64,000 nucleotides of DNA from Opitutia bacterium UBA7350. GTDB taxonomy: Bacteria; Verrucomicrobiota; Verrucomicrobiia; Opitutales; Coraliomargaritaceae. This document shows positions 13,855 through 50,308 of the stretch, one piece after another. Below the pieces are notes generated by a model. It had not been told where the DNA came from. It did not search any database and worked only from the letters and a program-made list of their open reading frames with translations. The stretch lies in contig CATINC010000017.1 in the NCBI GenBank assembly GCA_949524905.1, forward strand, positions 124,001 through 188,000, written 5' to 3'. Each line of letters opens with the position of its first letter. Position 1 is the first letter of the stretch. The position numbers and the translations under genes were made by a program.

Positions 13855-13871
13855 GGCGCAAAGAAGTTAAT

Positions 13872-14981: not shown

Positions 14982-14992
14982 GGCATTAAATG

Positions 14993-16063: not shown

Positions 16064-16075
16064 GGGTGATGGCGT

Positions 16076-17056
16076 TTAAATGAGTGCTTTCGGCGGTGGA
16101 CATTTGTTAACCTGTGCGTGGGGTGCTTCTCCACGGAGCAGCATAAGGAGGTTTTCGGTAGCTTTAGTGGCCTGACGAATGACACTCTCATGAGTACGGG
16201 AACCGATATGCGGCGTGATGAGGGAGTTTGGGGCATGTAACAAAGGGTGATCAGCGGATGCAGGTTCGATATCAAGAACATCGGCACCGTAGCCCCCAAT
16301 ACGTCCCTCTTGGAGCGCCCTCACCATAGCATCTACCTCCACAAGTTCACCGCGGCTGCAATTTATGACTACCGCGGTGGGTTTCATTTGTGAGATGGAA
16401 TCTTTGGAGATAAGTCCCTCGGTTTCTGGGGTGAGGTTCGTATGCAGTGAAATGAAATCACTTTCACTAAAAATCGGATCAAGATCCATCGCGCGTTGAA
16501 TCTTATGTTCTTGGGCAAAAGCTTCGGGCCAGTAGATATCTTGGGCAATTACTTTCATCCCAAAGGCGTTTGCTCGTAGTGCCACTTCTCGACCAATACG
16601 ACCCAAGCCAATGATGCCAATCGTTTTGCCCGAGATTTCGTGGCCGGTCTGGCGTTTCCAGAGCCCTTCTTTGGTCCATTGTACATGCTCAATTAGGCGC
16701 TTACTCAAGGAAAGCATGAGCATAAAGCAATGCTCCGCTACGGTGGTGTGATTGACCCCCGGAGTGAAGGCCACCGGAATTCCCTTTTCGCTGGCAAACG
16801 CCACTGCGATTTTATCCACTCCGATCCCATATTTCGAAATTATTTTCAGACGGGGCAGGGCTTTCTCGATGACCGCTTTGCTGATGACGTCATCACCGCA
16901 AAGAAAAGCATCGAAATCACCTGCCAACTCAAGCATGCGTCCCTCTGAAAGCGGGCCGCGCTCGGTCACGATTTTCGCACTGGAACTTGCCAGTAGGGCA
17001 TGGTGTGGTCCTGGAGTGTCTTGATAAGAAGTCGTCGTCAGTAGAATACGTGTCAT
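16076..17056 (-). CDS. D-isomer-specific 2-hydroxyacid dehydrogenase
   Basis: This 326-residue NAD-dependent dehydrogenase resembles phosphoglycerate and glyoxylate/hydroxypyruvate reductases. The Rossmann motif GIIGLGRIGREVALRA is centred near residue 155, and catalytic Arg/Glu/His positions lie in INCSRGELVEVDAM, EPASADHPL and the C-terminal TPHIGSRTHES. It lacks the C-terminal ACT domain of biosynthetic SerA, so a catabolic role is more likely. It is second in the uronate operon, 14 bp after the SDR gene. The substrate may be a uronate-derived 2-keto acid. Confidence 0.88.
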   Translation of the reverse strand: MTRILLTTTSYQDTPGPHHALLASSSAKIVTERGPLSEGRMLELAGDFDAFLCGDDVISKAVIEKALPRLKIISKYGIGVDKIAVAFASEKGIPVAFTPGVNHTTVAEHCFMLMLSLSKRLIEHVQWTKEGLWKRQTGHEISGKTIGIIGLGRIGREVALRANAFGMKVIAQDIYWPEAFAQEHKIQRAMDLDPIFSESDFISLHTNLTPETEGLISKDSISQMKPTAVVINCSRGELVEVDAMVRALQEGRIGGYGADVLDIEPASADHPLLHAPNSLITPHIGSRTHESVIRQATKATENLLMLLRGEAPHAQVNKCPPPKALI

Positions 17057-22825: not shown

Positions 22826-22840
22826 TGATATTGATTAAAT

Positions 22841-28358: not shown

Positions 28359-29986
28359 ACCTGTGGTCGTTCGAGAATTTGTCCTTTTTCGAGCAATTTG
28401 TTGCGCAATTTTGTGTAGTCGACTTTTTGTACGGGGATATCCTCACGGATTGCCATAGAGGCAGCAATCCCCGCCGATTCTCCAAGGATCATCCAGACGG
28501 GTTCCATGCGGAGCGAGGTCATCGCAATATGGCTGGCAGAACAACAGACTGGAACAAAGAGATTGGTGCAATCTGAAGCTTTTGGAATGATCGAGCGGTA
28601 TGGAATTTTGTAGATGCCATCGTGGACGGGATCGAGCCGCAGCATGGAAAATTCACCCCCATTGAGGACAACTTTGCCATTGAGTGGGAACATCGCATAA
28701 GGCCAGTCATCCACTCCGTATGAAGCTAGACCAACCGAATCGGAAGGATCTGTTTTTCCTTCCATGTCTTTTTGGCAAACAACATAATCGGAAACCATTC
28801 GGCGGCATTCCCGAACATAAAGCTGATGCGGTAAACCGCCAGTATCATCGAAGTAATCTGGCATGAAGCCGACTTTGCGAGCGTTCACACGTTTATCGGC
28901 TGGGACACTGGGATCTGTTCTCAAGAAATGGGTAAAGCCTAGTAGGTGGTTTTGGAGGAATTTCCAAATGCGGGCACGCTCGGCATAGTCTCCCTCTGGA
29001 TAATTGGCATTGGAGCCGTAGACGGTATTGGTGTATAAGCTGCGTGCTTGGTTACCTGTGCCGATTCCGTGGACGTGTCCGCCACATTTTTCGTAGACCC
29101 CAAGTTTGCGAGTGCGGCGTCCCAGGAGGGAAATTTTATTTTGGTAGGCACGACGATAAACTTCGTAAGTGCGGGGGTCGTAGTCCTCTGGAGCACCAAT
29201 GGGAATTTGATCGGGCTCTTTAGTAAACTTCCAGCGAAAACCATAGCCCATAGTAAGTTTGTCGGCACTCCCGATGGGATTCATTTTAATGTCCTGTACG
29301 AGCGGAATGAGCCCACTCGAGGGATTTCCGGGCCGAACATAGGGATCAATGTCATATTCTACCATATTGGGCGGTACGCCCCCAAGTGATTCACCGTATT
29401 CTTCAGCTGCTTCGCGTCCATAGGTGTAGGATACCCCTGAACGCGCCATTAATTCTCCTTCATAGCTACAGTCGATAAAGACATCTGCCTCTACACGCAT
29501 GGAGTGTTTTACGATCGCTCGAGGTATGGGACACCCGAGTTGATCTGGCGGGGCGTGTTCAAGCTCGATAGATTTAATTTTTTTACCAGCTTTACGGAGG
29601 CTAGCGAGTCGGTGCTCGTAGACCACCTGAATAGCATATTTTTCTATGATCTCTTGAAACATTTTCCGGTAAACGGTATCGTCAAACTTACTGTTTAAGG
29701 TTTTGCGAGTGGTTCCTCCAACAGCCCGGCGACGCCCCCAATCGATATGCATGAGACCACCGCCTGTCATACCACCTAACCATCTTGAGGGTTCGACAAT
29801 AACAACGCGCATGCCTTCGCGTCTGGCAGCGACTGCTGCCATGATACCACTGGCAGTCGCGCCGTAGACACAAAGATCGGTATGGGTAGTTCCCAAAGCA
29901 GTATCACGCGTCTCAGCGCTCAAATAAGTGCCAAGGAGTGAACAACCACCGATTGCAATAAATTCTCTACGATTAATCTCTTTCAT
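28355..29986 (-). CDS. Tat-exported FAD-dependent oxidoreductase (FAD_oxidored family)
   Basis: This 543-residue protein starts MKEINRREFIAIGGCSLLGT, a twin-arginine signal (RREF), implying export in folded, cofactor-bound form. The FAD-binding dinucleotide fold is DLCVYGATASGIMAAVAARR and is followed by EPSRWLGGMTGGGL. The family is often annotated as xanthan-lyase-like FAD oxidoreductase and is frequently found with sulfatases and fucosidases in Planctomycetes and Verrucomicrobiota, but its reaction is not established. It may oxidise a sugar hydroxyl on the substrate. It is second in the six-gene operon, 22 bp after GH35. Confidence 0.88.
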   Translation of the reverse strand: MKEINRREFIAIGGCSLLGTYLSAETRDTALGTTHTDLCVYGATASGIMAAVAARREGMRVVIVEPSRWLGGMTGGGLMHIDWGRRRAVGGTTRKTLNSKFDDTVYRKMFQEIIEKYAIQVVYEHRLASLRKAGKKIKSIELEHAPPDQLGCPIPRAIVKHSMRVEADVFIDCSYEGELMARSGVSYTYGREAAEEYGESLGGVPPNMVEYDIDPYVRPGNPSSGLIPLVQDIKMNPIGSADKLTMGYGFRWKFTKEPDQIPIGAPEDYDPRTYEVYRRAYQNKISLLGRRTRKLGVYEKCGGHVHGIGTGNQARSLYTNTVYGSNANYPEGDYAERARIWKFLQNHLLGFTHFLRTDPSVPADKRVNARKVGFMPDYFDDTGGLPHQLYVRECRRMVSDYVVCQKDMEGKTDPSDSVGLASYGVDDWPYAMFPLNGKVVLNGGEFSMLRLDPVHDGIYKIPYRSIIPKASDCTNLFVPVCCSASHIAMTSLRMEPVWMILGESAGIAASMAIREDIPVQKVDYTKLRNKLLEKGQILERPQV

Positions 29987-30008
29987 AATTAGAACGATTT
30001 AGCTGTGG

Positions 30009-31970
30009 TTATTTTTTAAGTTTCTGAGAGAAATCCAAATCGGTGCGTAGTTTTGAGAGGATGGGTTTCTCCAGTCCTTGCACAATTGGAGTTTCCGTTT
30101 CGAGATATTCCAGCACAATGATTTCATTACGGCCTTTTTTGAGCCATACTCCTGGGCAATAAAGGGTCTGTTGGGGTCCGATCTTCCAATATCGACCGAG
30201 GTTGTGTCCGTTGATCCAAAGCATACCTTTTCCGAGTTTACGGGTATCAATGAAAGTGTCGCCGGTTTGGTCCAGTTTGAACTGACCACGTCGGAAAACA
30301 GGGCCTTTAGTTTTGGAATCGGTTTCAGAAAATTGAATCTTAGAAAGATGAGCGTCGTCAAGTGGTAGGAGAAAGATTTCCCATTTTTGTAATTCATTTT
30401 CAACACCGCCGCTTGTCCATTTAATCGGTGTGATGAGTCCCTTATAATCAATCATTTGAACGCCCCAATTTGGACGTCCCATGGGTTCGACTACAAGATC
30501 AAGGACCATGGCCTTGGGGCGTGCTGGGATTTCAAGCTGAAAGATACGACGACGACGATCCATGATGCCACTGGGTTGGCCATCCAATAAAACATAGGCA
30601 AAGTCTCGCACGGAGGCGGCACTTAGTAGGCCTGCTGGACCCGCAGGTAAGGTTGTGCGATAGACAATGGAGCCGTAGCCTTGATCGTAAAACTCCATTG
30701 TCTTGGGATCGCGTGTGCGAATTGGTTGAACTTTGGGGCCAATGATGGGGGCAGTCTCATTGAGCACGATTTCAGGTATCGCGAGGGTGGGGATCGCAGG
30801 TGGGATGGGAGGTATTTGCGATCCTTCTGCTAGACGACTTTTAAATAGTTGGCGAAAGGCCATAAATTTTTTTGTGGCGCGACCCGACTCAGAAATGGGG
30901 GCATCGAAATCGTAGGAGGTGGTGTCGGGGCGATAGGCATCATCACCTTTATCATTGGGATATTCGGCAGTTTCTTTTGCGGTGTAAGAACCGGCGGTAA
31001 ATCCAAAATTTGTCCCACCGCAACCCATGTAGAGGCAGAAGGAGTGATCATTATCGATCATGTAGGCCATGTCGTTGACACGCAGATCAATTGCACCGGT
31101 CTTGTGGGGCTCTCCCCAGAAGTCGAAACCAGAGACGTAGTATTCTCCATTTGCATAGGGTCCAGTAGGCTTGAAACGGCGAAGGATCTCAAAGGATTCT
31201 GCCGCTTTACGGCTTCCAAAATTAACGGTCTGGATGAGATCATCGCGGTAGCTGTCGATAAAGCGCTGTCCGCCTTTGGTTGGGTTGCAGGAAATCAAAG
31301 GAATCTCAAAACCGGCATCAAGGTAAAGTTGTCGCATGGCCTTGAGGTAGGGCTGATCACGGTAAGGGAATTCGTTTTCAACTTGGCATAGAATAATGGG
31401 GCCGCCCCGAGTAACTTGAAGGGGTGCCAACTCGCGTGCGACAGCTTTGAGGTAGCGCTCGGATGCTGCCATATAATGCGGGTCGGTGGTTCGTAGTTGA
31501 ATGCCTTGGTGCTGGAGCAACCACCAAGGATGTCCGCCCATTTCCCACTCGGAGCAAACATAGGGACCAGGGCGAATGATGACCCAGAGCCCTTCCTCTT
31601 GTGCGAGGCGACAAAATTTCGCGTAATCATTGAAGCCTTCAAAGTTAAACTCGCCGGGACGCGGTTCCACCTGATTCCAGAAAATGTAGAACGAGACCGT
31701 GTTTAAACCCATCGCTTTGACCATTTTTAGACGATGGCGCCAATATTCCGGCGGTATACGGTTGGGATGAATCTCGGTCGCGTGGTAAAAGAAGGGGGTT
31801 CCGTCTAATTGAAAGGCTTGATCGGAAATACCAAAATCAAAGCTATGGTCTTTAGCAGCTTCAACAGCGGGACTACGTACAATTTTTTTTTGAGAAGGAT
31901 TAGAACTGCAAACCCCGGAGAATAAGGACAGATTTGTGAGAATAAGGAGGAACCTAAGCAAAAGTTTCAT
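30009..31970 (-). CDS. Exported GH35 beta-galactosidase
   Basis: This 653-residue enzyme has a signal peptide ending near residue 22. The GH35 TIM barrel begins with the FFYHATEIHPNRIPPEYW segment (GH35 consensus around the SGxxHYxRxP region). The acid/base Glu is in CQVENEF near residue 199, and the nucleophile is the Glu of YANGEYYVSGFDFWGEPH near residue 274. C-terminal jelly-roll domains contain GMLWINGHNLGRYWKIGPQ. It removes terminal beta-linked galactose. It is the first gene of the six-gene operon reaching to 19112. A terminator at 32012-32042 separates it from the PEP-CTERM gene, so its own promoter should lie in 31971-32011. Confidence 0.93.
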   Translation of the reverse strand: MKLLLRFLLILTNLSLFSGVCSSNPSQKKIVRSPAVEAAKDHSFDFGISDQAFQLDGTPFFYHATEIHPNRIPPEYWRHRLKMVKAMGLNTVSFYIFWNQVEPRPGEFNFEGFNDYAKFCRLAQEEGLWVIIRPGPYVCSEWEMGGHPWWLLQHQGIQLRTTDPHYMAASERYLKAVARELAPLQVTRGGPIILCQVENEFPYRDQPYLKAMRQLYLDAGFEIPLISCNPTKGGQRFIDSYRDDLIQTVNFGSRKAAESFEILRRFKPTGPYANGEYYVSGFDFWGEPHKTGAIDLRVNDMAYMIDNDHSFCLYMGCGGTNFGFTAGSYTAKETAEYPNDKGDDAYRPDTTSYDFDAPISESGRATKKFMAFRQLFKSRLAEGSQIPPIPPAIPTLAIPEIVLNETAPIIGPKVQPIRTRDPKTMEFYDQGYGSIVYRTTLPAGPAGLLSAASVRDFAYVLLDGQPSGIMDRRRRIFQLEIPARPKAMVLDLVVEPMGRPNWGVQMIDYKGLITPIKWTSGGVENELQKWEIFLLPLDDAHLSKIQFSETDSKTKGPVFRRGQFKLDQTGDTFIDTRKLGKGMLWINGHNLGRYWKIGPQQTLYCPGVWLKKGRNEIIVLEYLETETPIVQGLEKPILSKLRTDLDFSQKLKK

Positions 31971-32011
31971 ATTATATGGAATAATTGCGGACTTTGTTCG
32001 TATCTTGTCAT

Positions 32012-32042
32012 AAAAAAAGCTAGCAAAATGAGCAGCTAGCTT
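32012..32042 (-). terminator. Intrinsic terminator of the PEP-CTERM gene
   Basis: Read on the minus strand, AAGCTAGC (32042-32035), a 10-nt loop and GCTAGCTT (32024-32017) form a perfect 8-bp stem, followed by a T-run opposite the A residues at 32012-32018. It lies just after the PEP-CTERM stop and before GH35. Confidence 0.88.
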
Positions 32043-32078
32043 TGTCTATGACGGTTGCTTTCTAGGTAGGATTAAATC

Positions 32079-32930
32079 CTACTTACGTCGCCTTATTAAG
32101 GTAACTATTAGAGCTATGCTACCAATGAATAGTGCATAGGTAGTTGGTTCGGGAACCGCGTTAGGTGTTACCGAATCCCATGTTGTCCCAATGCGAAATT
32201 CGTCAAAATATACCGTACCATTGGTATTTTTGCTGGAAAGTACTAGATTGGTAGGAACAGAACTGTTGAATCCTGCATTTGTTGCAATATTTGAGCCTTC
32301 AGAGCTTAATACTGGATCCCAGAAAAAATCCAGATTGTGACCCGTACCTGAAGAATTAACATTAATCTTTAGGACCGCCAAGTGTGTGTTGGTGTCGGTC
32401 GCCGCGATCTGTGCAGAGGTGCTGTTTTCTCTAAGATAGAAACCAGTGCTATCGATACGAATAGCAGGATCGTACCAATCAGCTCCGCCTCGACCTAAAA
32501 CTATACGAGCTTGTTTGGTAACATCAGTTACTTGAAGCAGGAAGCTCATGTAGTAGGTTTGGTCGACAGCAAAATTGATTACATTGGAGTCGAAACTGCG
32601 ATAAGACATACCAGCACCAGTACGCCAAACCGAATTTCCGGAAGTGCTGAGGGTATTACCAGCACCATCGCTGTAACTTAGGGAGCTTGGCGGCGTTGTT
32701 CCCATTCTAAAAGTGCCGCCTGAGTGCTGCCATGATCCAGAGAAGCCTGCAATAGTAGGATCTTGACCTGCCTGGAGACGGTAATTGGCGTCAGTTCCAC
32801 CCGTATACTCGCCAGCAGCTTGGTCTGTACCAGCGGTAAAGCTATCGTATGCTAAAAGTTCAGCCTGTAAGCTTGTATAGGAGATGAGTAATAAAGGTAT
32901 CAGGAATAGCGTTAAACTTTTTGCTTTCAT
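32079..32930 (-). CDS. PEP-CTERM-anchored extracellular jelly-roll-like protein
   Basis: This 283-residue exported protein has a signal peptide (residues 1-23) and a Ser/Thr/Gly-rich beta-sandwich body resembling LamG-like modules (SYRSFDSNVINFAVDQTYYM). The C-terminal sorting signal VPEPTTYALFIGSIALIVTL is followed by RRRK. PEP-CTERM proteins are processed by exosortase and attached to or released from the cell surface; the exosortase is not in this window. A carbohydrate-binding role is suggested by its place beside the glycosidase operon but is inferred. Upstream lies a LacI-type operator (33014-33025), so it may be induced with the GH2 operon. Confidence 0.88.
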   Translation of the reverse strand: MKAKSLTLFLIPLLLISYTSLQAELLAYDSFTAGTDQAAGEYTGGTDANYRLQAGQDPTIAGFSGSWQHSGGTFRMGTTPPSSLSYSDGAGNTLSTSGNSVWRTGAGMSYRSFDSNVINFAVDQTYYMSFLLQVTDVTKQARIVLGRGGADWYDPAIRIDSTGFYLRENSTSAQIAATDTNTHLAVLKINVNSSGTGHNLDFFWDPVLSSEGSNIATNAGFNSSVPTNLVLSSKNTNGTVYFDEFRIGTTWDSVTPNAVPEPTTYALFIGSIALIVTLIRRRK

Positions 32931-33001
32931 GCTAGGGTAGGTAGGTTGTGTTTTATCTTAATATTAAAATGAGTGTACTATTTGATCGCGTCAATAAAAA
33001 A

Positions 33002-33025
33002 GTTACAAAAAAATGTAACGTAGCA
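33002..33025. promoter_or_regulatory. LacI-type operator upstream of the PEP-CTERM gene
   Basis: TGTAACGTAGCA at 33014-33025 is a near-palindrome with a central CG, resembling TGTTACGTTACA before the GH2 gene. A second inverted pair, GTTACA-A6-TGTAAC, covers 33002-33019. The site is 72-95 bp upstream of the PEP-CTERM ATG and just downstream of the lacI-type gene, whose product probably binds it. Confidence 0.5.
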
Positions 33026-33059
33026 TTTTATACTCACACTTGGTATCTATCGTTGTGTT

Positions 33060-34127
33060 TCATTGGATCAGTTTTGGGGCAACTAATGCGGTAATATTTT
33101 TATTTGGAAGCTTGAGGACTCGCTGTACGAGTCGCTCTACGGCTGTTTCAATAAGTTCTGGGAAGCACAGGTCAATGAGGATGGGTTTTGGATCCAATTG
33201 TCCAACAAGGTTTGGAGTGACTCCGGCAATAATGAGCCGCAGTTTACCGTCGTCGAGTAGTCCGGCCTTTTTTAAGGATTGATGAACTAGGGGTGCTCTT
33301 TGTTCGACGAGTAGGAATATTCCAATTGGAGCTTTTGCATTGGATGCTTTGAGCGATGCAGTAATCTCAGTAATTTCCTGAAAAATGGTCAGGGGAGCGG
33401 GCCAACATTGACTGGGATTTGGGCGAATTTTAGCGGCTGCAAAGGTTTCCGTGCTCATTCCATCGCTGGCGGCCCGGTCAAGCAGCGCGCGACCTCTCAA
33501 GTTGAGGGCCTCATGGAGGGATTCACTGGTATCAATAACTGCAAAATGTTGGCAGCCAGCACTTTTCAGGGTTCGGTAGGCGAGGGCACCGACGGCAACA
33601 TCATTGGTGCTGATATGCTCCACGCTGGAGACAGGATGTCCTGGCGTAAATAGGTGCACCACCGGAATGAGCGTTGCCAGCTTCGCAATCATTTCCCTCC
33701 GTTGCCTCACAACCGAACCCGAACCGGAGGGTACGTAAAGGATGGCACCGTCTACTTGGCGAGAACGTACACAAAGTGGGATGTCGTCGATGCCGGTCAT
33801 TTGGTCGATAAGAAAATTGAGATTTCGCTTGAGGCAGGCGTTCTGTAGGTCACCGAGCAACATCGATAGAATGGGTTCCTCCATAGAATTTTTGGTTTCT
33901 CCGATGGAAATGAGCGCGAGACTGCCGTGTCGCAATTTGGGTATGGCAGAGGCGTGTAGACCGCCTCCCTGGCGCCCATTGGGTCGCGAATAACCCAATT
34001 CATCAATGATCTTGCGGACACGGGCGGCGGTTTTTGGTTTCACGGCGGAACTACCATTCATCACGCGGGAGACCGTTGCTCGTGAGACCTGCGCCGCTTT
34101 TGCAAGGTCTGTTACAGTTACATTCAT
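33060..34127 (-). CDS. LacI-family transcriptional regulator
   Basis: This 355-residue regulator has a textbook N-terminal LacI helix-turn-helix and hinge (VTVTDLAKAAQVSRATVSRV, MNGSSAVKPKTAARVRKII), followed by a periplasmic-binding-protein-like effector domain with HISTNDVAVGALAYRTLKSAG. It is divergent from the GH2-SSS-GH141 operon with 136 bp between starts and lies upstream of the PEP-CTERM gene. Candidate operators occur on both sides (33014-33025; 34192-34216; 34224-34235), suggesting repression of both neighbours and of itself until an oligosaccharide or galactoside binds. Confidence 0.93.
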   Translation of the reverse strand: MNVTVTDLAKAAQVSRATVSRVMNGSSAVKPKTAARVRKIIDELGYSRPNGRQGGGLHASAIPKLRHGSLALISIGETKNSMEEPILSMLLGDLQNACLKRNLNFLIDQMTGIDDIPLCVRSRQVDGAILYVPSGSGSVVRQRREMIAKLATLIPVVHLFTPGHPVSSVEHISTNDVAVGALAYRTLKSAGCQHFAVIDTSESLHEALNLRGRALLDRAASDGMSTETFAAAKIRPNPSQCWPAPLTIFQEITEITASLKASNAKAPIGIFLLVEQRAPLVHQSLKKAGLLDDGKLRLIIAGVTPNLVGQLDPKPILIDLCFPELIETAVERLVQRVLKLPNKNITALVAPKLIQ

Positions 34128-34191
34128 AGAATAAGTGTATGCGGTTTAATTATGCTTGAGACCAGTTTAAATTTATGAAACAAAGTTCTAA

Positions 34192-34235
34192 TTGTAATAA
34201 TGCCTATACATTACAAAAATTATTGTTACGTTACA
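34192..34235. promoter_or_regulatory. LacI-type operators between the regulator and GH2
   Basis: Two palindromic elements lie in the divergent gap: TTGTAAT-N11-ATTACAA at 34192-34216 with perfect 7-bp arms, and TGTTACGTTACA at 34224-34235, a 12-bp LacI-style palindrome with central CG and one mismatch. The second is 28 bp upstream of the GH2 start, a good position for repression. Confidence 0.6.
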
Positions 34236-34263
34236 TTTGATGATTTCATCCCATTTTTAAACG

Positions 34264-37200
34264 ATGTCAACTGAATCAGATTCATGCCTACCGGCCAAAG
34301 ATACCTTTGCTGCAATTGCTACGATGGAGTTAAGCGGAGAGCGGAGAGGCATGGAGTCACCGGAACGAGTGCCATGTTTGGAGACGGTTTTACCGCTTAA
34401 AGAATGTGAGGAAGCGGAGCTTAGCTTGCCGCGGACTCAAAAGATCGACACGCCTGAGGCTCTGGAAGTCGCTCTAAAGGCCGAGCGCATCCGTATGGCT
34501 CCATACATGAGGAATCTTGCTCCAGAATTGCCGGCTACTCGAATTTTACAAATCTTCCAGCAGGCAGACTGGCGAATTGAGGGATCACGCTCGGGCGAAT
34601 CATTACAGGAGGCTCTGGCGGGTGAAGGAAAATGGGAATCTGTTTCCATACCTCATTATGGACCACCACTTGGAAAAGCTTCTACGCTCTACCGAGTGAC
34701 GTTTGATCTTCCGGAATCTTTTGCGACAAAGGAATCACTTTTCTTGTGCTTTGATGCCGTCGATTATCGCTGCCAGCCTTATTTGAACGGGGTTTGCTTA
34801 GGCGAACATGAGGGGATATTTGAGCCCTTTGAATTTGAGATCAGCACGATCATCAAAGCTGAGGGCAACGTGCTGCTTGTGCGCGTTGAAAATGACTTTA
34901 CTATGTTGGGTGAGGCTTTCAAGGAAGGTCAGGCAGATGGCGATAAAATATACGCGGCGACTGGATTGGGTTATGACGACCCAGAACGGGGTTGGCACCA
35001 TTGCCCAGCAGGCATGGGAATTTGGCAGCCTTTTCGAATTGAGGGGCGTTCACGGCTCGCCGTGGCAGATGTTTATGTTCAACCATCGCCTGCGCTGGAT
35101 GCGGTTGAATTATACATTGAGGTGGATAATTATGGAAAAAGTCACGCAGAGGATGTGGGTTTCCAAATTTCAATCTACGGACAAAATTTTGAAGCCACGG
35201 TGTACGCGGACCGCTGGTATAGCCCAAATACTCAACCCGAGGCGGGCTTTGGTGATTTAGACAAGGAGTTAGAGCAATCGATTCCCTTATTGGCGGGTTC
35301 GGGTCGTAACTATTTTAAATTGACGCTTTCGGTACCAGAAGCGCGCATCTGGGAACTGGAGACGCCTTGGCTCTATCAAGCGCAAGTTCGTCTATTGAAC
35401 GGAGATGGCGACTTGCTTGACGCTGCCAGTCAACAATTTGGGATGCGAAGTTTTGTGCAAGATGAGACCACTTCGCCCAAGGGGAAATTTTACCTGAACG
35501 GGCGAGAAATCCGACTACGTGGTGCCAATACCATGGGGAATCTTGACCTGTGTGTTTTTCGCAACGATACCCTCCAATTGATTGATGATATTCTCCTAGC
35601 GCGTTTGTCGCACATGAATTTTTTGCGGCTCACACAGCACCCCGTCCAGAAGCAGGTTTACGAATACTGTGATCGTTTAGGGATGTTGTTGCAAACGGAT
35701 TTGCCGCTCTTTGGAACCCTGCGGCGTAATCAATTTCTGGAATGCGTGCGACAGGCGGGAGCAATGGAAAAACTCGTACGCTCACATCCTTCTAATATAT
35801 TGGTTTCGTTTATCAATGAACCTTTTCCCAATGGGCGAAGTAAGCCCCACCGCTTTCTTGAGCGCGATGAGATGCAGTTATTTTACAAACTAGCAATTGA
35901 AGAGGTGCATCGTCACAACAAGGAGCGAGTGATCAAATGTGTGGACGGGGATTATGATCCTCCGGCGGCGTTCGGAATGCCGGATAACCATTGTTATTGC
36001 GGCTGGTATCTGGGGCATGGCGTGGACTTAGGTCAATTGTATGCAGGTTATTGGTTGCCAGTAAAGTCAGGTTGGCATTATGGATGCGGAGAATTTGGGG
36101 CCGAGGGCTTGGACTCGCTGGCGGTCATGAAGAAGCATTATCCGAAAGGATGGTTGCCGGCAACTTTGGAAGCTGACTGGAATCCCGGGATCATTCCTAA
36201 AGCACAAAGCTCTAACTTTCATGGTCTGTGGTATGACACGCCCACCGATGTTGAAAGCTGGATTACTGCGAGTCAGGAGCATCAGGAATGGGTAAATCGT
36301 TTGATGACCGAGACCTTCCGCAGGATGCCGGGAATGAATACTTTTGCAGTTCATTTATTTATCGATGCATGGCCCGCGGGATGGATGAAGACCCTTATGG
36401 ATGTGAATCGAATTCCGAAGAAATCCTGGTTCAGTTATCGCGATGCTTTGACGCCTCTGGCAGTTTCCTTGCGCTGTGACCGCACTGCGGGAGTGGCGGG
36501 AGAAACGATCTCGGTTGAGCCTTGGGTCGTGAATGATTTAGAGCGGGTGCCGGATGATTGCGAACTAGGTTATACCATTAGCTGCGCTTCCCGGGTTTGG
36601 TATGAGGGAAAATCACCTGCCAAGATCGCTGCGGTGATGCCGCAAAGCCAGGGTGCACTGAAGTTTCAACTGCCTGAGGTGACTACCTTGAGTACTTGTA
36701 TCATTCATCTATCTCTGATGGATGCCGAGGGTCAGGCATTGCACGATACGAAATTAAATATAGATGTTTATCCTAATGTTGAAGTTCCGAAGGAAGGAGT
36801 TCGCGTACACGTACTGGGGGACGCGCCGGCCGGGTATGAGTGGTTGCGTGAACTAGGACATGCCAGCTCCAAAAAGACGGCAATTCAAGATGCTGAGGTA
36901 ATTCTCATCACGGATATAAAGGCCTACCTGAGGTTAGCCGAAACAGTGGATGCGGTTGTGCGCGGAGGTGCAGTTGCTTTCTTTTTTCCACTGCCGGTCG
37001 GAAGCCACCGCATTGGTGCATCCACGGTTGAAATTAAAAAAGCAGGCATGGGCCCGAGGCATTTTGTTTCCTGCCAGACTGGTCATCCTATGGTGGTGGA
37101 TTTTAAAAAAGATGCTTTTAAGTTTTGGTATGATGAAAGTTGCGGCTATCCCAGTCCAATGCTCAAAACTACTTTTATAGGTGAACGCTGGAAATGTATT

Positions 37201-42104: not shown

Positions 42105-43676
42105 TTATTTTGGCGATGCGCTACCCCACCAGTCTTCATTAGGCACAAAATCAGGTCTAAGATAAGCGGCACTTCTTTTTTCTAACCAATCATGCACTTT
42201 GTTGGCATGATGCTCGAGGTATTCTTCCAATAGTTCAGTTTTAAAACGTGGGTCTCGCTGTGGCATTTTTGCACTGGTTTCATCGAGCCACCGATCGAGT
42301 TTCTTTCTTAGCTCTATAACCTGCTCGGGTTTTTTGGTTGCCAAATCAACACGCTCACCCATGTCAGTAAGGAGGTCGTAAAGCTCATCCCGACCATCCT
42401 CATGGTAGTGAATGAGTTTGTAATTCCCACTTCGAATGACGGAAGAGGGTTCACCACCCTGATTGCCGTAGTGGGGATAATGCCAAAAAAGATCCCGATC
42501 TGGAAGAGGTTCACCTCTCAGGAGCGGTGCTAGGCTAAGGCCATCCTTATGTTGTTCCGGTCGTGTCGGGAGGTTGGCTAATTCCAGCAAAGTGGGATAT
42601 ATATCCATATGAATAGCAAGCGCATCTGTAGTCGCATTTGAAAGCGCGTAGCCCGGCGCATGAAGATAGAAAGGCGCACGGGTACCACCCTCCCATTGGC
42701 GCCCTTTGCCGCCGCGTAAGGGAAAGCTACAGGTTGCATAGGCATCACCCGAGACCACGCCTCCGTTGTCGGAGGTAAAAATAACAATGGTATTTTTGTC
42801 CAATCCTGATGCTTTTAGTTGTGCCATTACGAGGCCTACGGCGTCGTCAAGGGTTTCCATCATCCCAGCATAAATAGGATTATCCTGGGCTGTTCGCACT
42901 GCACGTCTGCGGTCAAACTCAAAGCGGTCATTGTTTTTATGTAGCCCCATTTGCTCTGCTTTATCGCGATATTTTTTCCAGAGGCTCTGAGTTGTTTCCA
43001 CCGGGGCATGCACTGCGTAAAATGATAGAAATGCTAGAAAAGGTTGGCTCTTAGCGCTTTTTATAAAGTCGGCAGTATCCTGCGCTAGGCGCAGGGTTAG
43101 GGATTCGCCCTCCGCGCCCGTGTCCATTTTGGGGTTTTTCCATGGACCAAAAAAACCGCCCCAACCCCCCGGACCGCCCGAGGATATCCCGCCAATATTT
43201 TTATCAAATCCATGGTCTTCGGGTAAAGAACCTTCCGCTCCGAGATGCCATTTGCCCGCAAAGAAGGTGGTGTAGCCAGCCTCCTTGAATGCCTCCGCTA
43301 GCGTCACTTCCTCTGCGGGTAAATTCCTCTGGTAAGTACTGGTTAATACGGGATAACGAGCCTTATTGCCGTAGCCACTCGCAGAGCCAATCCATTGTGT
43401 AATACCGTGCCGCGGAGTTGCTTTACCGGTCATTATACTAGCACGCGATGGGCTACAAACTCTGGAGGCGCAATATGCTTGATTAAAGCGCAAGCTGGAT
43501 TGCGCTAGGAGATCAATGTGGGGGGTTTCATGAAATACACTTCCCTCGATTGCCAGATCAGAACGTGCGAGGTCATCGACTAAAAAAATTAGAATGTTAG
43601 GTTGTGTCTGCGTCTGGCAATAGAGGATTCCTGCTAAAAAAAGAAAGGGGCTTACTATGGAAAGGGGGTGGAGCAT
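42105..43676 (-). CDS. Secreted type I sulfatase (formylglycine-dependent)
   Basis: This 523-residue exported sulfatase has a signal peptide (residues 1-22) then PNILIFLVDDLARSD with metal-binding Asp residues. The formylglycine motif is CSPSRASIMTGK near residue 75, with Cys to be converted. GKWHLGAEGSLPEDHGF and the FTSDNGG metal site are present. It is longer than the other sulfatase (464 aa), and the two share little beyond the core motifs, so they probably cut different sulfate positions. It is transcribed alone, 165 bp downstream of fucU on the same strand, and converges with the GH141-like gene. Confidence 0.94.
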   Translation of the reverse strand: MLHPLSIVSPFLFLAGILYCQTQTQPNILIFLVDDLARSDLAIEGSVFHETPHIDLLAQSSLRFNQAYCASRVCSPSRASIMTGKATPRHGITQWIGSASGYGNKARYPVLTSTYQRNLPAEEVTLAEAFKEAGYTTFFAGKWHLGAEGSLPEDHGFDKNIGGISSGGPGGWGGFFGPWKNPKMDTGAEGESLTLRLAQDTADFIKSAKSQPFLAFLSFYAVHAPVETTQSLWKKYRDKAEQMGLHKNNDRFEFDRRRAVRTAQDNPIYAGMMETLDDAVGLVMAQLKASGLDKNTIVIFTSDNGGVVSGDAYATCSFPLRGGKGRQWEGGTRAPFYLHAPGYALSNATTDALAIHMDIYPTLLELANLPTRPEQHKDGLSLAPLLRGEPLPDRDLFWHYPHYGNQGGEPSSVIRSGNYKLIHYHEDGRDELYDLLTDMGERVDLATKKPEQVIELRKKLDRWLDETSAKMPQRDPRFKTELLEEYLEHHANKVHDWLEKRSAAYLRPDFVPNEDWWGSASPK

Positions 43677-43841: not shown

Positions 43842-44270
43842 TTATGGGGTCACGCCTTTTTTGAGGAGGAGGTTACCGTATTTAGCGGTCTCTCCGGTCA
43901 TGACTATCGCGAAGGATTCTTGGGCGAGGTCGTAGAATTCAAAGCGGCCGACTCGTGCAATAGCGGGGGCCTGGGGGGCGTGTTTTTCGATGGCGGCACG
44001 GTAGTCGGTTTCAACTTTAAGATCGAGGGTATCGCCTTCGACGGCCGCCATCATGATGAGGGGATCGGGTACGTAGGCGTCGAGTTCAAAGAGGGGGAGG
44101 ATGCCATTGAGGAGATCGGGTATGCTGAGTCCGTCGGCGCGGAGGATGTTTTCGTTGAGGGTTTCGCCAGGAAAATGGGCATCCGCAAGGATGATGGTAT
44201 CGCCGTGACCCATGCGTGCGAGGGTGGCGAGGAGTTCGGGAGAGAGGAGAGGTGAAATTCCTTTGAGCAT
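43842..44270 (-). CDS. fucU: L-fucose mutarotase FucU (RbsD/FucU family)
   Basis: This 142-residue protein, against 140 in E. coli FucU, interconverts alpha- and beta-L-fucose so that the isomerase receives the right anomer. The family signature [16 protein letters not shown] is near residue 20 and the substrate-loop Tyr residues occur near the C-terminus ([20 protein letters not shown]). It is the last gene of the fucose operon, 4 bp after the nucleotidyltransferase-kinase gene. The GC-rich codon use matches that of the preceding operon genes. Confidence 0.93.
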
Positions 44271-44274
44271 ATTA

Positions 44275-45363
44275 TTATGAGGTGGATTTTAAATAAGGTT
44301 CGATGGCGAGGGCAGCTTCGTTGTTTGTGACGAAAGCGTCGCGATCTTTTTGTTCGGCAAAGAGATAGAGGGCGTAACCGCCGTAACCGCCGCCACAGTA
44401 TTTCGCCGCAAGAGCGCTGGCTTCCTCAGGCAAGGCTTGCATGCCTTCGTTGAGTTGGGTTTGGTAACTGATTTGAATAGCTTTCGCTAGTTGTTGGAGA
44501 TCGTTATCATCAACGGCTCGGGCCGCAAGTTTACCCGCCGTTTCGATACGGTCGTAATCGCGTTGGATATCTACGGTGCTGGGGGTGTTGTGATCGGAGC
44601 CAGTATAGAGGAGCGCCATCTTTCCTTGGAGGAGTTCGCCGTCTCGTTTGAGTGCTAGCTCTGGTCGAGGACCACTTTTCCAGACGCAGAGTCCGGTTTC
44701 GGTAATAATAGCAGGATCCTGCCAGCCGACGCCAAGGTCGAGTTCGCTCAGGACCCCAGATTTTCCGTTAAGAAGAGCCCAAGCGCCGCTGCCGCCAAGT
44801 CCGGAACGTTTCTCGTATTGCCAGTCTTGTAGTGAAACGGTTGGGGAGACTGCACAATTAACGATAAAAGCGCCTTGGCGGGCAAAGCGAGGTACGTCGA
44901 GCCAGCCGCCACCAAAATCTACGCGAACGGGGGCGTGATCGGGGGCTTGAATCCACTTAACGATTCCGGAGGTTGAAACGGTTTTAAATTTGGGCGGGGT
45001 CTTTGGAAGTTTAATGTATTGAGTGCCGATTTCTTGACAGAGCGCCTTTTTGATTCCTTCGTGCTGATCATCTTCGGTGACCGCAAGAATATCGGGGCGG
45101 ATGCGGCGAAAATGATCCTGAAAGTCGAGGCCAAGGGTATCGTTTTCTCCAACTAACGCGTCATCGACCACGGAGAGGTTGCGAAGGAGTTCGAGTTTAT
45201 GTTCCTGCGGAAGAGAGGAGCGTCGTTCTTTATGCTGCCAAAGGACATCATCTGAAGCAAAACAAACGGTGAGGTGATCACCAAGGGCGCGGGCTTCGCT
45301 GAAGAATTGAATATGACCTGCGTGGATGATGTCGTAACAGCCAGATACAAATATTTTTTTCAT
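44275..45363 (-). CDS. Nucleotidyltransferase-GHMP sugar kinase fusion in the fucose operon
   Basis: This is a 362-residue cytoplasmic protein with two domains. Residues about 1-137 are a cytidylyltransferase-like fold ([20 protein letters not shown] with the HxGH nucleotide motif; VSTSGIVKW as the ISTTxI equivalent). Residues about 142-362 are a compact GHMP kinase with the substrate motif [19 protein letters not shown] loop [12 protein letters not shown] and [15 protein letters not shown]. The first kinase motif resembles the fucokinase half of FKP proteins. It may phosphorylate L-fucose or L-fuculose, possibly followed by nucleotidyl transfer; this is inferred. No other fucose kinase is in the window. 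It sits between the SGNH hydrolase and fucU with 13- and 4-bp gaps. Confidence 0.82.
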
Positions 45364-45376
45364 AAGTTCGTTGGTA

Positions 45377-46030
45377 TTATGAGCGATTATGTTTCCAGTC
45401 GAATCCGATGCTGTCGAGGAAAGCTTTGGCGAGGATTAAGTGCCCTGTTTGATTTGGGTGAACCCGATCTTCAGCGAGGGTTTCCGAGGGTCGATATTTT
45501 AGGTAGGTATCGAAGGCTGCCTGCGTGTCAACGAGATGAGCGTTGAATTTAGCAGCAAGTTTTTTAACGATGGACCCGTAAGTATCCATCATGGCGCGCA
45601 TGGGATCGGTGGGCTTGCTCTCGATTAAGAACGGTGTAGCGAGTATTGGTTTTGTTTTCTTTGGAAGGTTTTGAAGGAGCTCGCGGTAGGTGGTTTCAAA
45701 TTGCTCTGGTGTGACGGGGGTTAGATCGTCGGGGGTGTCGAATTGTCGCCAGACGTCGTTGATGCCGATCATGAAGGAGAGCCAGTCGGGTTTATATATC
45801 TGGATGTCCTTTTGCCAACGGTCACGCAGGTCCGTTACACGGTTTCCATTTATGCCAGTATTTAAGATGCGGATCGCAGTTTTAGGATAGCTAGATGCGA
45901 GGAGGCAATCGATTAGTTTGACATATCCGTTTCCTAAGCCAGAGCCTGCACCGAGCGGATAGGAGCGTCCGCAATCGGTAATGGAATCTCCGGTGAAGAG
46001 GAGGGTTTGTCCTGTTTTAATTTGGAGCAT
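45377..46030 (-). CDS. Cytoplasmic SGNH/GDSL hydrolase
   Basis: This 217-residue esterase-like enzyme begins MLQIKTGQTLLFTGDSITDC; ATG 46030 is chosen because the longer frame overlaps fucI and lacks similarity. The SGNH blocks are all visible: GDSITD (Ser), GINGNRVTD (Gly/Asn), MIGINDVW (GxND) and the C-terminal DRVHPNQTGH (Asp-His). There is no signal peptide, so it should act inside the cell, perhaps deacetylating imported O-acetyl-fucose. It lies 4 bp after fucI and 13 bp before the kinase fusion, so it clearly belongs to the fucose operon. Confidence 0.88.
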   Translation of the reverse strand: MLQIKTGQTLLFTGDSITDCGRSYPLGAGSGLGNGYVKLIDCLLASSYPKTAIRILNTGINGNRVTDLRDRWQKDIQIYKPDWLSFMIGINDVWRQFDTPDDLTPVTPEQFETTYRELLQNLPKKTKPILATPFLIESKPTDPMRAMMDTYGSIVKKLAAKFNAHLVDTQAAFDTYLKYRPSETLAEDRVHPNQTGHLILAKAFLDSIGFDWKHNRS

Positions 46031-46034
46031 TTTT

Positions 46035-47819
46035 TCAGCGATACAATGGTCCGTAGGTCTGGCAAGCACGGAAGTCGGCTGCTTCAAGGTCGGCAGTGCC
46101 AAAGGCACGCCAAGCGCTGGGACGGAAGACGCGGGATTTCTCGATATTGTGCATATATACTGGAATGCGAAGCATCGCAGCGAGGCTGATATAGAGGTGT
46201 CCTACGTGTCCAGCCGTCATGACGCAGTGGTTGGCACCCCAACTGTTCATAACTTCATAGGTTGAGCTGAAGGCGCCCGAGCCCGTCAGGCGCGGAGCAA
46301 ACCAAGTGGTCGGCCAAGTGGGATTCGTACGTTGATCAAGAGCATCATGTATGGCGTCGGGAAGATCTACGGTCCAGCCTTCAGCAATTTGAAGGCAAGG
46401 ACCCAGACCAGCAGCGAGGTTTAGTCGAATCATCGTGGCATCCATGCCACCCTTAGTGCGGTAAAGAGTACTCATGCCTCCGCCAGGGAAGTACTCGCTA
46501 ACGGATGGGTGCCAGGTGGTGTTTTTTAAGCTGGCATGCATTTCTTCATCGGTGATTTCCCAATGGGGCTTCATGGTGGGTTTGCCATCTGTGCCGGTCT
46601 GATCGCCGGTGCCGTCAAGGGCAGCGGGTCCGGAGTTAATAAGGTGTAGGAGTCCGTCTTCGGCGGCGCCCTTGAGTTGGTAATTGTTGGCAACGCGAGC
46701 TACGGCATCGGGACTCCAGTAGGTGCGAAGATCGGCGAAGATTTGGGCACTGTTGGTGAGAAGTTGCCCGAAGAGCATACCAGCTCCATTGAGGGCGTCG
46801 TTTTCGGTAGCAACGATGTAGGGTGGGCGTTTCCCATTCCAGTCGAAGGAGGTGTTGAGAATGGCTTCCATGAAGTCGCCGTTTGGGAAGTGGTCGGTCC
46901 ATTGGCGCTGACCTTGAAAACCGGCTGCGATTGCATAGTGCCCCTGTGCTTGTTCGCCGAGTCCCATCTGGGCGAGCTTGGGGTTTCCGATCATGAGGTC
47001 GCGGGCGATGAGTGCCATTTTGATGGAATCCTCCCACTCCCTGTCGAGTTGTTTACGGCTGCGTTTTTGATCTTCGCTGTTGTAGTCGTCACCTTCGGGG
47101 CAATGAGCTTTGACCCACTCGAGGGCTTTTTTAAATTCTTCTGGGTCATAAGTGCCTTTGCTCATGCGTCCGACGAACTCAGTCATATCTATAGTTTCCA
47201 AGCGCATCCCGAGATGGTTTTCCCAAAAAGATGGGTCAACGACTGAACCTGCAATGCCCATGGAGGTGCCACCCATGGAGAGGTAAGCCTTACCGCGTAT
47301 GTAAGCTACCACGAGGCCGGCGCGGGCAAAGTTGAGGAGTTTTTCGATAACGTCTTCAGGGATATGGGTATCACCTGCTTCTTGTACGTCTTCACCGTAA
47401 ATACCAAATGCAGGGAGGCCTTTCTGGGTGTGTCCGGCAAGGGCTGCGGCGAGGTAAACTGCACCCGGTCGCTCGGTACCATTGAATCCCCAGACAGCTT
47501 TAGGACGATGGGGATCCATGTCCATAGTTTCAGAGCCGTAGCACCAGCAGGGTGTTACCGTCACACTGAGACCAACGCCGTCGCGTTGAAATTTTTCTTC
47601 ACAAGCAGCAGCTTCAAGTACGCCGCCGATATTGGAATCTGCAATCACGCATTCTACTGGCGATCCGTCAAGGTTACGGAGGTGATCGGTGTAGAGATCA
47701 GCGAGGCTTTGTGCCATTGCCATGGTACTGTCTTCGAGCGACTCGCGCACGCCGCCAAGACGGCCGTCTATGGTTGGACGGATGCCTATTTTGGGAAATT
47801 TGAAGGGATAGTTTTCCAT
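46035..47819 (-). CDS. fucI: L-fucose isomerase
   Basis: This 594-residue enzyme, close to 591 in E. coli, converts L-fucose to L-fuculose and acts as a Mn-dependent hexamer. ATG 47819 ([20 protein letters not shown]) is the correct start; a longer frame runs antisense-free into fucP sequence but has no family similarity. Metal and catalytic residues occur in [16 protein letters not shown], and the Glu/Asp pair is typical of FucI. The [20 protein letters not shown] segment is also characteristic. It is second in the fucose operon, 17 bp after fucP. Confidence 0.97.
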
Positions 47820-47836: not shown

Positions 47837-49324
47837 TTATCGTAGCGGTTTTGGTCGTGCGTGCTGATATATTGCAAAAATGGCATAAGCTGCAATGGCG
47901 ATAAAACAGAGGATGGGTAGGAAGAAGGAACCGCGAACACCGGTGGTGCCCATAAAGGTTTCCATGTCCATAATACCTCCTTGGAGGCGTGGCATGAAGG
48001 CACCGCCGACAATGGCAAGAATGAGCCCAGCGGAGGCGATTTTCGCATCTGGGCCGAGTCCTTCTAAGGCAATACCGTATATCGTTGGAAACATAAGAGA
48101 CATGCATGCGGATATTGCCATAAGGGAATAAAGCCCAGCCATAGCTTCTAGGTAGATTGCACCTAAGGTGGCAAGAATGGCTGCACCGGCAAGGGTAGCT
48201 AAAAGAATACTTGGGTTCACATATTTGAGGAAGAAAGTGCAAACGAAACGGCTTGAGAGGAAAAGAACCATAGCGCCGATGTTGTGGTTTTGAGCGGTGG
48301 CTTTGTCCATGCCGAGGGTTTCTTGAGCGTACTGGATAATAAAGGTCCAGCACATGATTTGAGCGCCTACGTAAAAGGCTTGGGCGATGACACCGCCTAC
48401 ATAGAGTGGATTTTTTCTAAGTCGGTGGAGGATTTCACGGAGGCTAGAGTGCTCACGTGCGTCATCCGCGGTAACGGTATCCGGGAGTTTAGAAAAGAGA
48501 AAAATAAAGAATACTCCAATAACGACAAAACCGATGACCTTATAAGGAGTGGAAACAATTTCTAAGTCGTGTTGTTGCAGTTCAGAATGCGATTTTCCAA
48601 TAAAGGTGGTGAGCTCACCACTTTTATAATCGGCTAGGGTTTGCTCGAGTCCTGCTTCGGGGTGGGTAGCGACATATTCCGCAAGTAATGGGTCTTGGGC
48701 GCTTTCCTTTTGCTTTGCTTGGAAAATAGGAAGGACGTAATGTTCATTTTGTACAATGGCATTGTTGTTGTCCTTGCTTTGGTAGCCCTTAAAGTCGGTA
48801 CGCAATTCTTCTACCTGTAAGTTAGATAAAATAAAGATACTAGCGACGGTCATGCCGGTGAGGGAACCGATGGGATTGAAAGCCTGAGCGAGGTTAAGTC
48901 TGCGGGTGGCGGTTTCAGTCGGTCCCATTGAGAGTATGTAGGGATTGGCGGTGGTCTCCAGGAAAGCCAGACCAAAGGTAAGGATATAGAGAGCCGCGAG
49001 GAAAAGGTTGAAGCTTGCCATGGAAGCCGCCGGCACACAAATCATAGCGCCGATGGCGTAAAGCGCTAATCCTAGTAGGATGCCTGCTTTATATGAAAAG
49101 CGTCGAATGAAGAGGGCAGCGGGAATAGCCATGGTTCCGTAACCGCCATAGAAGGCCATTTGAACCCAGCTGCTCTGAGCGTTGTTGATGACAAAGACAT
49201 CCTTAAAGGCAGCGACCAATGGATTTGTGATATCGTTAGCAAAACCCCAAAGTGCGAACAGAGTGGTTACGAGGATAAAAGAGAAGCAGTATTTCCGTGG
49301 TATAACTGGCAATGATTTAGACAT
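47837..49324 (-). CDS. fucP: L-fucose:H+ symporter FucP (MFS) with an enlarged loop
   Basis: This 495-residue, 12-helix MFS permease starts [20 protein letters not shown]. The [16 protein letters not shown]-like segment ([20 protein letters not shown]) is the classical FucP motif with Asn and Asp, and [13 protein letters not shown] is also conserved. It is longer than E. coli FucP (438 aa) because the loop between about the fifth and sixth helices has expanded by roughly 50 residues, with a charged insert ([20 protein letters not shown]). ATG 49324 is used; frames starting upstream are atypical. It is the first gene of the fucose operon and is divergent from an AraC regulator. Confidence 0.93.
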
Positions 49325-49453
49325 GGGGAGATGTGTGAATATAATTCTATCTGAAAAAGTAATCTGATGTTTATATATTAGTAAAATTACCGCTTGCGCA
49401 ATAGTACTATTCATGACCACATATGGATATTATTGAACAACTTTTTTTGAAGG

Positions 49454-50308
49454 ATGAAGAAGCTTGGCAAGGAACTGGAGTTATCGCCACAGATCAAACA
49501 AGGTCATTATGCAAATTTTTCTCGGGCTACGCAGAATGACACAGACATATTTATGGCAGGTTATGAGGAATGTGCGCCTGATTACCGCATCAAACGAGCA
49601 GAATTTCCATTTTGGATTATGGAGTTCATTGTGGGTGGAATCGGCTATTTTAAAAATAATGAAGCCATGCAGGTTCTGGGTCATGGGTCCGTTTTTTGTT
49701 ATGGACCGGGGATGGGTTTTGAATTTTGGAATCAATCAGACCGGCCTTTTAAAAAGTATTTTTTGGTAGCAGGAAGTGATCGTTGTCCGGCAGCTTGGTT
49801 GGAGGCAGGCCTACGTTTAGGAAAAGTGCGCCAAATGCAGGCGGTTGCACCTGTTATAACGATTTTTGACCAGATTTTAAAGGAAGGAGAACTACGAGAT
49901 GGACAGACACATTCGGTGATGCGTTCGCTGCATCCATTATTGTTGGCTCTGATTGAACGGCATCAAGGTGTTAATGAAAAAGAAGCGACGGGATCGCGAA
50001 AGGCCTATGAGTTGACAATGGCGGCACTTCAGCAGGATTACCGTAAGCTCAACAGTTTGGCGGATCTAGCCGAGCGCTCAGGATACAGTGGAGAATATCT
50101 GTGCCGTATTTTTAGAAAGTATCATGGCGAAACTCCTTACCGAGTGCTTACGCAACGGAAAATGACGGCAGCTTGGTTATTGTTGAGGGATAGACGCCTA
50201 CAGGTTGGATCTGTGGCGCGAGAGATAGGTTTTGAAGATCCCTTGCATTTTTCACGGGTCTTCCGTCGAGTGATGGGTTGTGCGCCAAGTTTGGTCGGTC
50301 AAGGTTAA
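49454..50308 (+). CDS. AraC-family transcriptional regulator of the fucose operon
   Basis: This 284-residue regulator has an N-terminal cupin-like sugar-sensing domain (about 1-165; FWIMEFIVGGIGYFKNNEAM) and a C-terminal AraC helix-turn-helix pair (about 185-284; LNSLADLAERSGYSGEYLCR and VGSVAREIGFEDPLHFSRVF). It is divergent from fucP across 129 bp of AT-rich sequence, so it most likely activates the fucose operon in response to fucose or fuculose. The short gaagg directly before ATG 49454 is too close to be a normal ribosome binding site. I saw no convincing operator in the gap. Confidence 0.9.
   Translation: MKKLGKELELSPQIKQGHYANFSRATQNDTDIFMAGYEECAPDYRIKRAEFPFWIMEFIVGGIGYFKNNEAMQVLGHGSVFCYGPGMGFEFWNQSDRPFKKYFLVAGSDRCPAAWLEAGLRLGKVRQMQAVAPVITIFDQILKEGELRDGQTHSVMRSLHPLLLALIERHQGVNEKEATGSRKAYELTMAALQQDYRKLNSLADLAERSGYSGEYLCRIFRKYHGETPYRVLTQRKMTAAWLLLRDRRLQVGSVAREIGFEDPLHFSRVFRRVMGCAPSLVGQG

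Follow-up and report, generated by a model that had tools for sequence, protein, structure and literature searches.

What does a kinase fused to a nucleotidyltransferase do in the middle of an L-fucose utilization operon? The question is raised by a 362-aa protein encoded in the window, that is, the whole 64,000-nucleotide stretch of the Opitutia bacterium UBA7350 genome analyzed here. The fusion gene lies in a minus-strand row of genes in the order fucP, fucI, GDSL hydrolase, fusion, fucU and sulfatase, with the following features:

Positions 42105-43676, minus strand: sulfatase downstream of fucU (PF00884, E 7.4e-52)
Positions 43842-44270, minus strand: FucU, L-fucose mutarotase (NCBIfam NF011949, 204 bits against a cut-off of 141; Pfam PF05025)
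Positions 44275-45363, minus strand: nucleotidyltransferase-GHMP kinase fusion of 362 aa, with its ATG at 45363 and the span including the stop codon
Positions 44287-44940, minus strand: C-terminal compact GHMP kinase domain of the fusion, residues 142-359, from profile and fold
Positions 44968-45363, minus strand: N-terminal HxGH nucleotidyltransferase domain of the fusion, residues about 1-132, with HAGH at 14-17 and STS at 130-132 (PF01467)
Positions 45377-46108, minus strand: GDSL/SGNH hydrolase (PF13472, E 2.5e-24)
Positions 46035-47819, minus strand: FucI, L-fucose isomerase, 594 aa (TIGR01089 981.6 bits and NF008220 1007 bits, both above cut-off)
Positions 47837-49420, minus strand: FucP, L-fucose permease (TIGR00885, 489.8 bits, above cut-off)
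Positions 49454-50308, plus strand: divergent AraC-family regulator (PF12833, PF00165, PF02311)

The fusion is a complete open reading frame running from 45363 to 44275 on the minus strand, the plus reading of the same span being full of stops, and it is present as a single copy in the genome (1.67 Mb in 17 contigs, 99.97% complete). Its placement between FucI and FucU in the initial annotation is right as to position, except that the GDSL hydrolase gene (45377-46108) intervenes between fucI and the fusion; from its listed GTG start that gene would run into fucI, and it more likely begins at the ATG at 46027. To judge from its position, the divergent AraC-family gene is a probable regulator of the fuc operon. 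A FucK kinase of the FGGY type would fill the step between FucI and the aldolase in this operon, and the window does lack a classical fuculokinase, as had been stated: it contains no FGGY match, and the three FGGY matches of the genome lie on other contigs. The family match of FucP is split into two stretches (PRK10133 first at residues 42-202, TIGR00885 best at 269-513), which suggests that the two halves are separated by an insert of about 65 residues. Elsewhere in the window, positions 19112-36000 hold dense large open reading frames that by eye resemble fucosidase, sulfatase, beta-galactosidase and acetylesterase genes, consistent with a locus for a fucose-rich polysaccharide; a hexuronate pathway is probably encoded at positions 12460-17056, where two dehydrogenases and a PfkB protein resembling KDG kinase accompany a glucuronate isomerase (above cut-off).

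The N-terminal part of the protein is assigned to the HxGH (CTP_transf_like) superfamily by its Pfam score (residues 6-104, E 1.7e-11, 44.9 bits against a cut-off of 21), the HAGH motif at 14-17 and S130. The Pfam scan of the fusion found this family alone, with no PF07959 and no FGGY_N or FGGY_C. Residues 1-128 were aligned by VIA-align to 3glv, 5x3d and 2b7l with Z 16-17, and by profile and fold the nearest groups are HldE/HldC, TagD and Fom1, a set of ATP and CTP users. HxGH nucleotidyltransferases are known to use CTP or ATP, so that GTP use by the fusion would be unusual. Among NCBIfam models, RfaE/HldE domain II scores best (E 7.9e-17) but stays well under its cut-off. HldE has the same kind of nucleotidyltransferase domain and likewise unites kinase and nucleotidyltransferase in one chain, but the domain order is reversed relative to the fusion, and the HldE kinase is of the PfkB type whereas that of the fusion is of the GHMP type; membership in HldE was rejected on score (46 bits against a cut-off of 521) and kinase type.

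For the C-terminal part, no GHMP Pfam family was matched by residues 140-362 at E 0.001, and phmmer aligned residues 143-173 to FKP fucokinase with E 0.14. A profile search retrieves FKP, heptose kinases and mevalonate kinase; VIA-align places mevalonate kinase, WcbL heptokinase, galactokinase and FKP in a tie (Z 17.5-18.2). In Foldseek, the AlphaFold model matches best to 9iip (E 5.1e-9), a structure of FKP fucokinase containing fucose-1-phosphate, followed by small nucleotidyltransferases such as 3glv and HldC. The model, built from an alignment of 57 of the 80 named loci described below plus the window protein, has a mean pLDDT of 84.3 and a pTM of 0.63, and its predicted residues 191-211, just past the start of the phosphate loop, are mostly below 50. 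Kinase motifs are located at 147-158, 188-194 (GLGGSGA), 211-217 (GVGWQDP) and 321-326 (KYCGGG); residues 142-359, with Z 17-18 to GHMP kinases and the motifs at 147-158, 188-194 and 321-326, belong to the GHMP superfamily.

According to a study of FKP (PMC11982464), its sugar-contact or catalytic residues are R592, W599, D601, T602, Q761 and D762, the E751A and D762A mutants are dead, and the adenine is modelled between Asp644, Met645, Pro666 and Ile669. R592, W599, D601, Q761 and D762 align to R147, W154, D156, Q215 and D216 of the fusion, all five invariant in alignment A1 (21 sequences: the window protein and 20 loci from whole-protein searches), and the position of T602 is occupied by V157. 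The invariant E207 is a plausible counterpart of FKP E751, and on the alignment G325-G326 fall within the glycine loop that carries A900 in FKP. The distance from R147 to the phosphate-loop start at 188 is 41 residues, against 120 in FKP (592 to 712), so much of the FKP adenine region (644-669) has no counterpart in the fusion. Between motifs 1 and 2 the kinase is shorter than that of FKP by some 80 residues, and it may be nucleotide-poor or altered. Overall, the description of the protein as a cytidylyltransferase-like domain joined to a compact FKP-like GHMP kinase is borne out by the CTP_transf_like match, the top Foldseek match and the retained FKP contacts.

The fusion is a genuine gene under purifying selection in both domains, with dN/dS relative to the homologue at locus L061 of 0.043 for the nucleotidyltransferase part and 0.075 for the kinase part. 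Full-length homologues (62-100% identity) were found in 28 of 57 related genomes; a chance open reading frame or a dead fusion was ruled out by these homologues, the invariant residues and the dN/dS values. A contig scan yielded 355 relatives among 421 candidate stretches, the best 80 of the 355 being kept as named loci. H14, G16, H17, K45, R47 and S130 are invariant in 78 of 78 sequences from these best 80 of 355 relatives; as the patterns RVDF[AG]GGW and GVGWQDPA served to find the 80 loci, conservation within these two motifs follows from the search itself in this 78-sequence count, though not in A1. Loci L065, L116 and L124 were left out of the residue counts owing to X or stop codons. Most of the best 80 of 355 loci are from Verrucomicrobiota, and the other records carry the labels Planctomycetota, Myxococcales, Fibrobacteres, Sumerlaeota, Rhodothermales and Desulfobacterales. 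Since the majority of the loci come from MAGs, labels may be wrong in some cases.

A sample of 387 genomes of the phylum was searched with the window protein at E <= 1e-20, which defines the fusion in this sample. Matches were found in 100 genomes, 60 with full-length homologues (the close form) and 40 with matches over the first 160-230 residues only (the distant form), in which the kinase half was profile-checked in 8 sequences. For these 8, homology of the distant form extends through both domains (hhalign probability 100, 325 columns, 25% identity); the distant form keeps the arginine, GGW.D and QD motifs, and its kinase shows a comparable shortening. Several genomes of genus g54 (e.g., G073, G079, G159 and G274; g54, like f51 and f43 below, is a coded taxon label) carry two fusion copies, both 55-59% identical to the window protein, and G162 carries one. 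In a divergent relative from the same genus (L155:5232-6844, G329), an independent nucleotidyltransferase of 144 aa, from the same superfamily, directly follows the fusion, as if the nucleotidyltransferase role had moved or doubled.

G162, which we take to be the type strain of Akkermansia muciniphila, carries its homologue directly before murJ; this homologue aligns gap-free with the window protein over 359 residues (1-359) at 58% identity. Amuc_1591, named in one paper of the literature covered, also lies before murJ (PMC13313206), and we infer that the G162 homologue (L141) is Amuc_1591. In that report, Amuc_1591 is altered in all 12 D-arabinose-resistant mutants (V176G, G326E, frameshift), growth of D-arabinose-treated Akkermansia is restored by L-fucose or mucin, and in June 2026 the protein was proposed as a fucose nucleotidyltransferase feeding LPS; sensitivity to D-arabinose via this gene, relieved by L-fucose, is described there for Akkermansia only (PMC13313206). 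Since the homologue is 58% identical without gaps and precedes murJ, V176 and G326 carry over to the window protein, where both residues are identical; both are also invariant in A1. Leishmania AFKP80 is described as producing both GDP-D-Arap and GDP-fucose (PMC5481574), an analogy that fits D-arabinose acting as a false substrate. The two domains of Amuc_1591 stand in the same order with the same residue numbering as in the window fusion, although Amuc_1591 is away from fuc genes and the window gene is inside the fucP-fucI-fucU operon. The window fusion is of the Amuc_1591 kind. The idea behind the initial annotation's suggestion of a possible new fucose-activating enzyme had already appeared in print, where this homologue with 58% identity was proposed as a fucose nucleotidyltransferase (PMC13313206).

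FKP, through which bacterial L-fucose salvage to GDP-fucose is usually sought, was scored in the same sample by PF07959 at E <= 1e-10. It is present in 60 of the 387 genomes and the fusion (close and distant forms) in 100, yet no genome carries both, against 15.5 expected (Fisher p 3e-9, a value inflated by relatedness, for which the counts by genus and family correct in part). The two occur in 47 and 39 genera and share 2, against 9.3 expected (p 0.0014), and in both shared genera FKP and the fusion are found in different species. Among the 17 members of family f51 in the matches listed, 8 and 6 carry them and none is shared (P 0.007); in family f43 the counts carry no information on the exclusion (P 0.33). 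The genome of the window has no PF07959 match at E 1e-10. No published report of the exclusion was found in literature searched under names other than the exclusion itself, and a word search of a paper on FKP evolution (PMC12732313) returned no Verrucomicrob, Akkermansia, cytidylyltransferase or nucleotidyltransferase.

The first gene of GDP-fucose synthesis is gmd, and Gmd and Fcl together make GDP-fucose. Among the best 80 of 355 loci, gmd and/or fcl lie within 10 kb of the fusion in 9, which belong to Akkermansiaceae, one Planctomycetales genome and MAGs with Fibrobacteres and Myxococcales labels. In the phylum sample, where adjacency was read by eye and is a lower bound (five places were checked, in L171-L175), fewer than 200 bp separate the close form from gmd in at least G320, G294, G350 and G258, the distance being about 2.6 kb in G418; the distant form adjoins gmd in at least G217, G129 and G147, and FKP is beside or near gmd in at least G363, G067, G168, G059 and G087. 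In L147, L174 and L175 the distant form directly precedes gmd, L147 also having a GT11 gene, and FKP-sized open reading frames (965 and 939 aa) directly adjoin gmd in L172 and L173. The genome of the window has a gmd-fcl pair and can thus make GDP-fucose de novo, so that salvage is not obligatory. It also matches GT11 and GT10 once each, at a spacing of about 1 kb; these families of GDP-fucose-using fucosyltransferases were matched in none of 14 control genomes.

The initial annotation proposed to look for loci with the fusion beside fucI; fucose-catabolism genes are exceptional neighbors: genes for FucI, FucP or FucU are near the fusion in 5 of the best 80 of 355 loci (L061, L062, L064, L065 and L073, the last an Akkermansiaceae MAG), so the gene context in the window is a local one. 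Adjacency to fucI as the defining context was accordingly rejected. The gene tyrS is near the fusion in 21 of the same best 80 of 355 loci and is commoner than gmd/fcl in Opitutales, and gives no functional hint. The distant form occurs directly after fucI in L145:7881-9023 and L146:6704-8140, and directly before gmd-fcl in L147:7605-8777.

The fusion is probably a bifunctional enzyme of L-fucose salvage that corresponds to FKP in function, and its product is most likely GDP-L-fucose. Weighing against this reading are gmd or fcl near only 9 of the best 80 of 355 loci, V157 in place of T602, the customary CTP or ATP of HxGH domains, the shortened kinase with low model confidence at that very place, the VIA-align tie and the de novo route to GDP-fucose. 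L-fucose itself is very likely the sugar activated, and, if so, GDP is the likely nucleotide, favored by the gmd-fcl linkage, the exclusion with FKP and the GT10/GT11 genes, while the nearest relatives of the nucleotidyltransferase domain itself argue for CTP or ATP instead. The earlier suggestion of a salvage enzyme with a non-FKP nucleotidyltransferase is thereby supported, through the FKP exclusion, the gmd linkage, GT10/GT11 and gmd-fcl genes in the genome and the missing FKP match. The other suggestion, an alternative L-fuculose kinase of fucose catabolism in which the nucleotidyltransferase domain would be inactive or regulatory, appears highly improbable. It is invited by the window's lack of an FGGY kinase and the gene's position among fucP, fucI and fucU, and also by the distant form, which directly follows fucI in two loci and accompanies FucI across genomes (35/40); FKP, which is no fuculokinase, is equally tied to FucI (52/60). 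The close form does not follow the isomerase: FucI is found with it in 33 of 60 genomes against 205 of 387 overall (p 0.78), being absent from the other 27 of 60, some of them drafts such as G002 with the fusion on a 6717-base contig. A RhaB-type FGGY kinase, FucI and the fusion share one cluster in L064 and L065, and Akkermansia has an FGGY kinase for fucose (L142; PMC7459334). FucK has FGGY domains, the window fusion has none, and the FGGY kinases elsewhere in the genome include a RhaB-type (rhamnulokinase-type) one that has a RhaD aldolase-dehydrogenase and another class II aldolase as neighbors. With the invariant motifs and purifying selection in the nucleotidyltransferase domain added to the co-occurrence counts and the FGGY kinases in the same clusters, replacement of fuculose kinase was rejected as the main reading.

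The kinase-nucleotidyltransferase might act on a different sugar found together with fucose in glycans of algae or cell surfaces, such as D-arabinose, L-galactose or a heptose, but this is improbable. The nucleotidyltransferase part is closest to heptose-1-phosphate nucleotidyltransferases by profile and fold, WcbL heptokinase ties with FKP in VIA-align, and D-arabinose is toxic through Amuc_1591, but L-fucose rescues this toxicity (both PMC13313206), both forms of the fusion occur with fucose-uptake or isomerase genes and gmd-fcl, and W154 and D156 match FKP sugar contacts. The same two-step L-fucose enzyme could instead release CDP- or ADP-L-fucose as a donor for unknown fucosyltransferases, which we regard as unlikely. 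It would agree with the grouping of the nucleotidyltransferase with HldE/HldC, TagD and Fom1, and CDP-alpha-D-fucofuranose, a different sugar, is in print (title of PMC12369002). Linkage to gmd and fcl as makers of GDP-fucose, exclusion with FKP, whose product is GDP-fucose, and the presence of GT10 and GT11 genes all speak against it. No mention of CDP-fucose, ADP-fucose or CDP-L-fucose was found in the literature covered, which takes in few subscription papers and these spellings only. A bolder version has the fusion replacing FKP in several bacterial phyla, the shortened kinase using an unusual donor (pyrophosphate released by the nucleotidyltransferase, or the same NTP) and the nucleotidyltransferase making undescribed CDP- or ADP-L-fucose; we give it a slim chance.

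Returning to GDP-L-fucose salvage, from the architecture, the conserved residues, the homology to Amuc_1591, the gene neighborhoods and the FKP exclusion, all of them direct observations, we infer a substrate, an order of reactions and a nucleotide that would work as follows. FucP would import fucose, and FucU would supply the beta anomer by speeding up the conversion to it. FucI would direct most of the fucose to catabolism, while the fusion would divert a share to an activated form. Its C-terminal FKP-type kinase would phosphorylate the C1-OH of beta-L-fucose to give beta-L-fucose-1-phosphate, with D216 as the putative general base and the phosphate handled by R147, S192 and the glycine loops. 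The N-terminal HxGH domain would join L-fucose-1-phosphate to the nucleotide with release of pyrophosphate, and the GDP-L-fucose product would enter the Gmd/Fcl pool to be used by the GT10 and GT11 fucosyltransferases for surface glycans.

Compared with FKP of Bacteroides fragilis, the fusion has a homologous kinase half with the same sugar contacts except T602 (PMC11982464), the same proposed overall reaction and, in other members of the phylum, the same genomic slot beside gmd. FKP combines a PF07959 nucleotidyltransferase with a beta-helix in about 950 aa, whereas the fusion has a small HxGH domain in 362 aa; lacking PF07959, it is an analogue and not a member of FKP. Beyond the existing Amuc_1591 proposal, the present analysis contributes the exclusion with FKP, the shared gmd slot, the occurrence outside Verrucomicrobiota, a second form that is more distant, and the shortening of the kinase.

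The way in which FKP and the fusion exclude each other renders the function directly testable, and a 362-aa enzyme replacing one of 950 aa could aid the production of fucosylated glycans. If the proposed function is correct, a search for fucose salvage based on FKP misses a quarter of the sampled phylum genomes (100/387), among them the marine bacterium of the window, with its fucose operon and sulfatases, and Akkermansia, in which surface L-fucose is linked to this gene.
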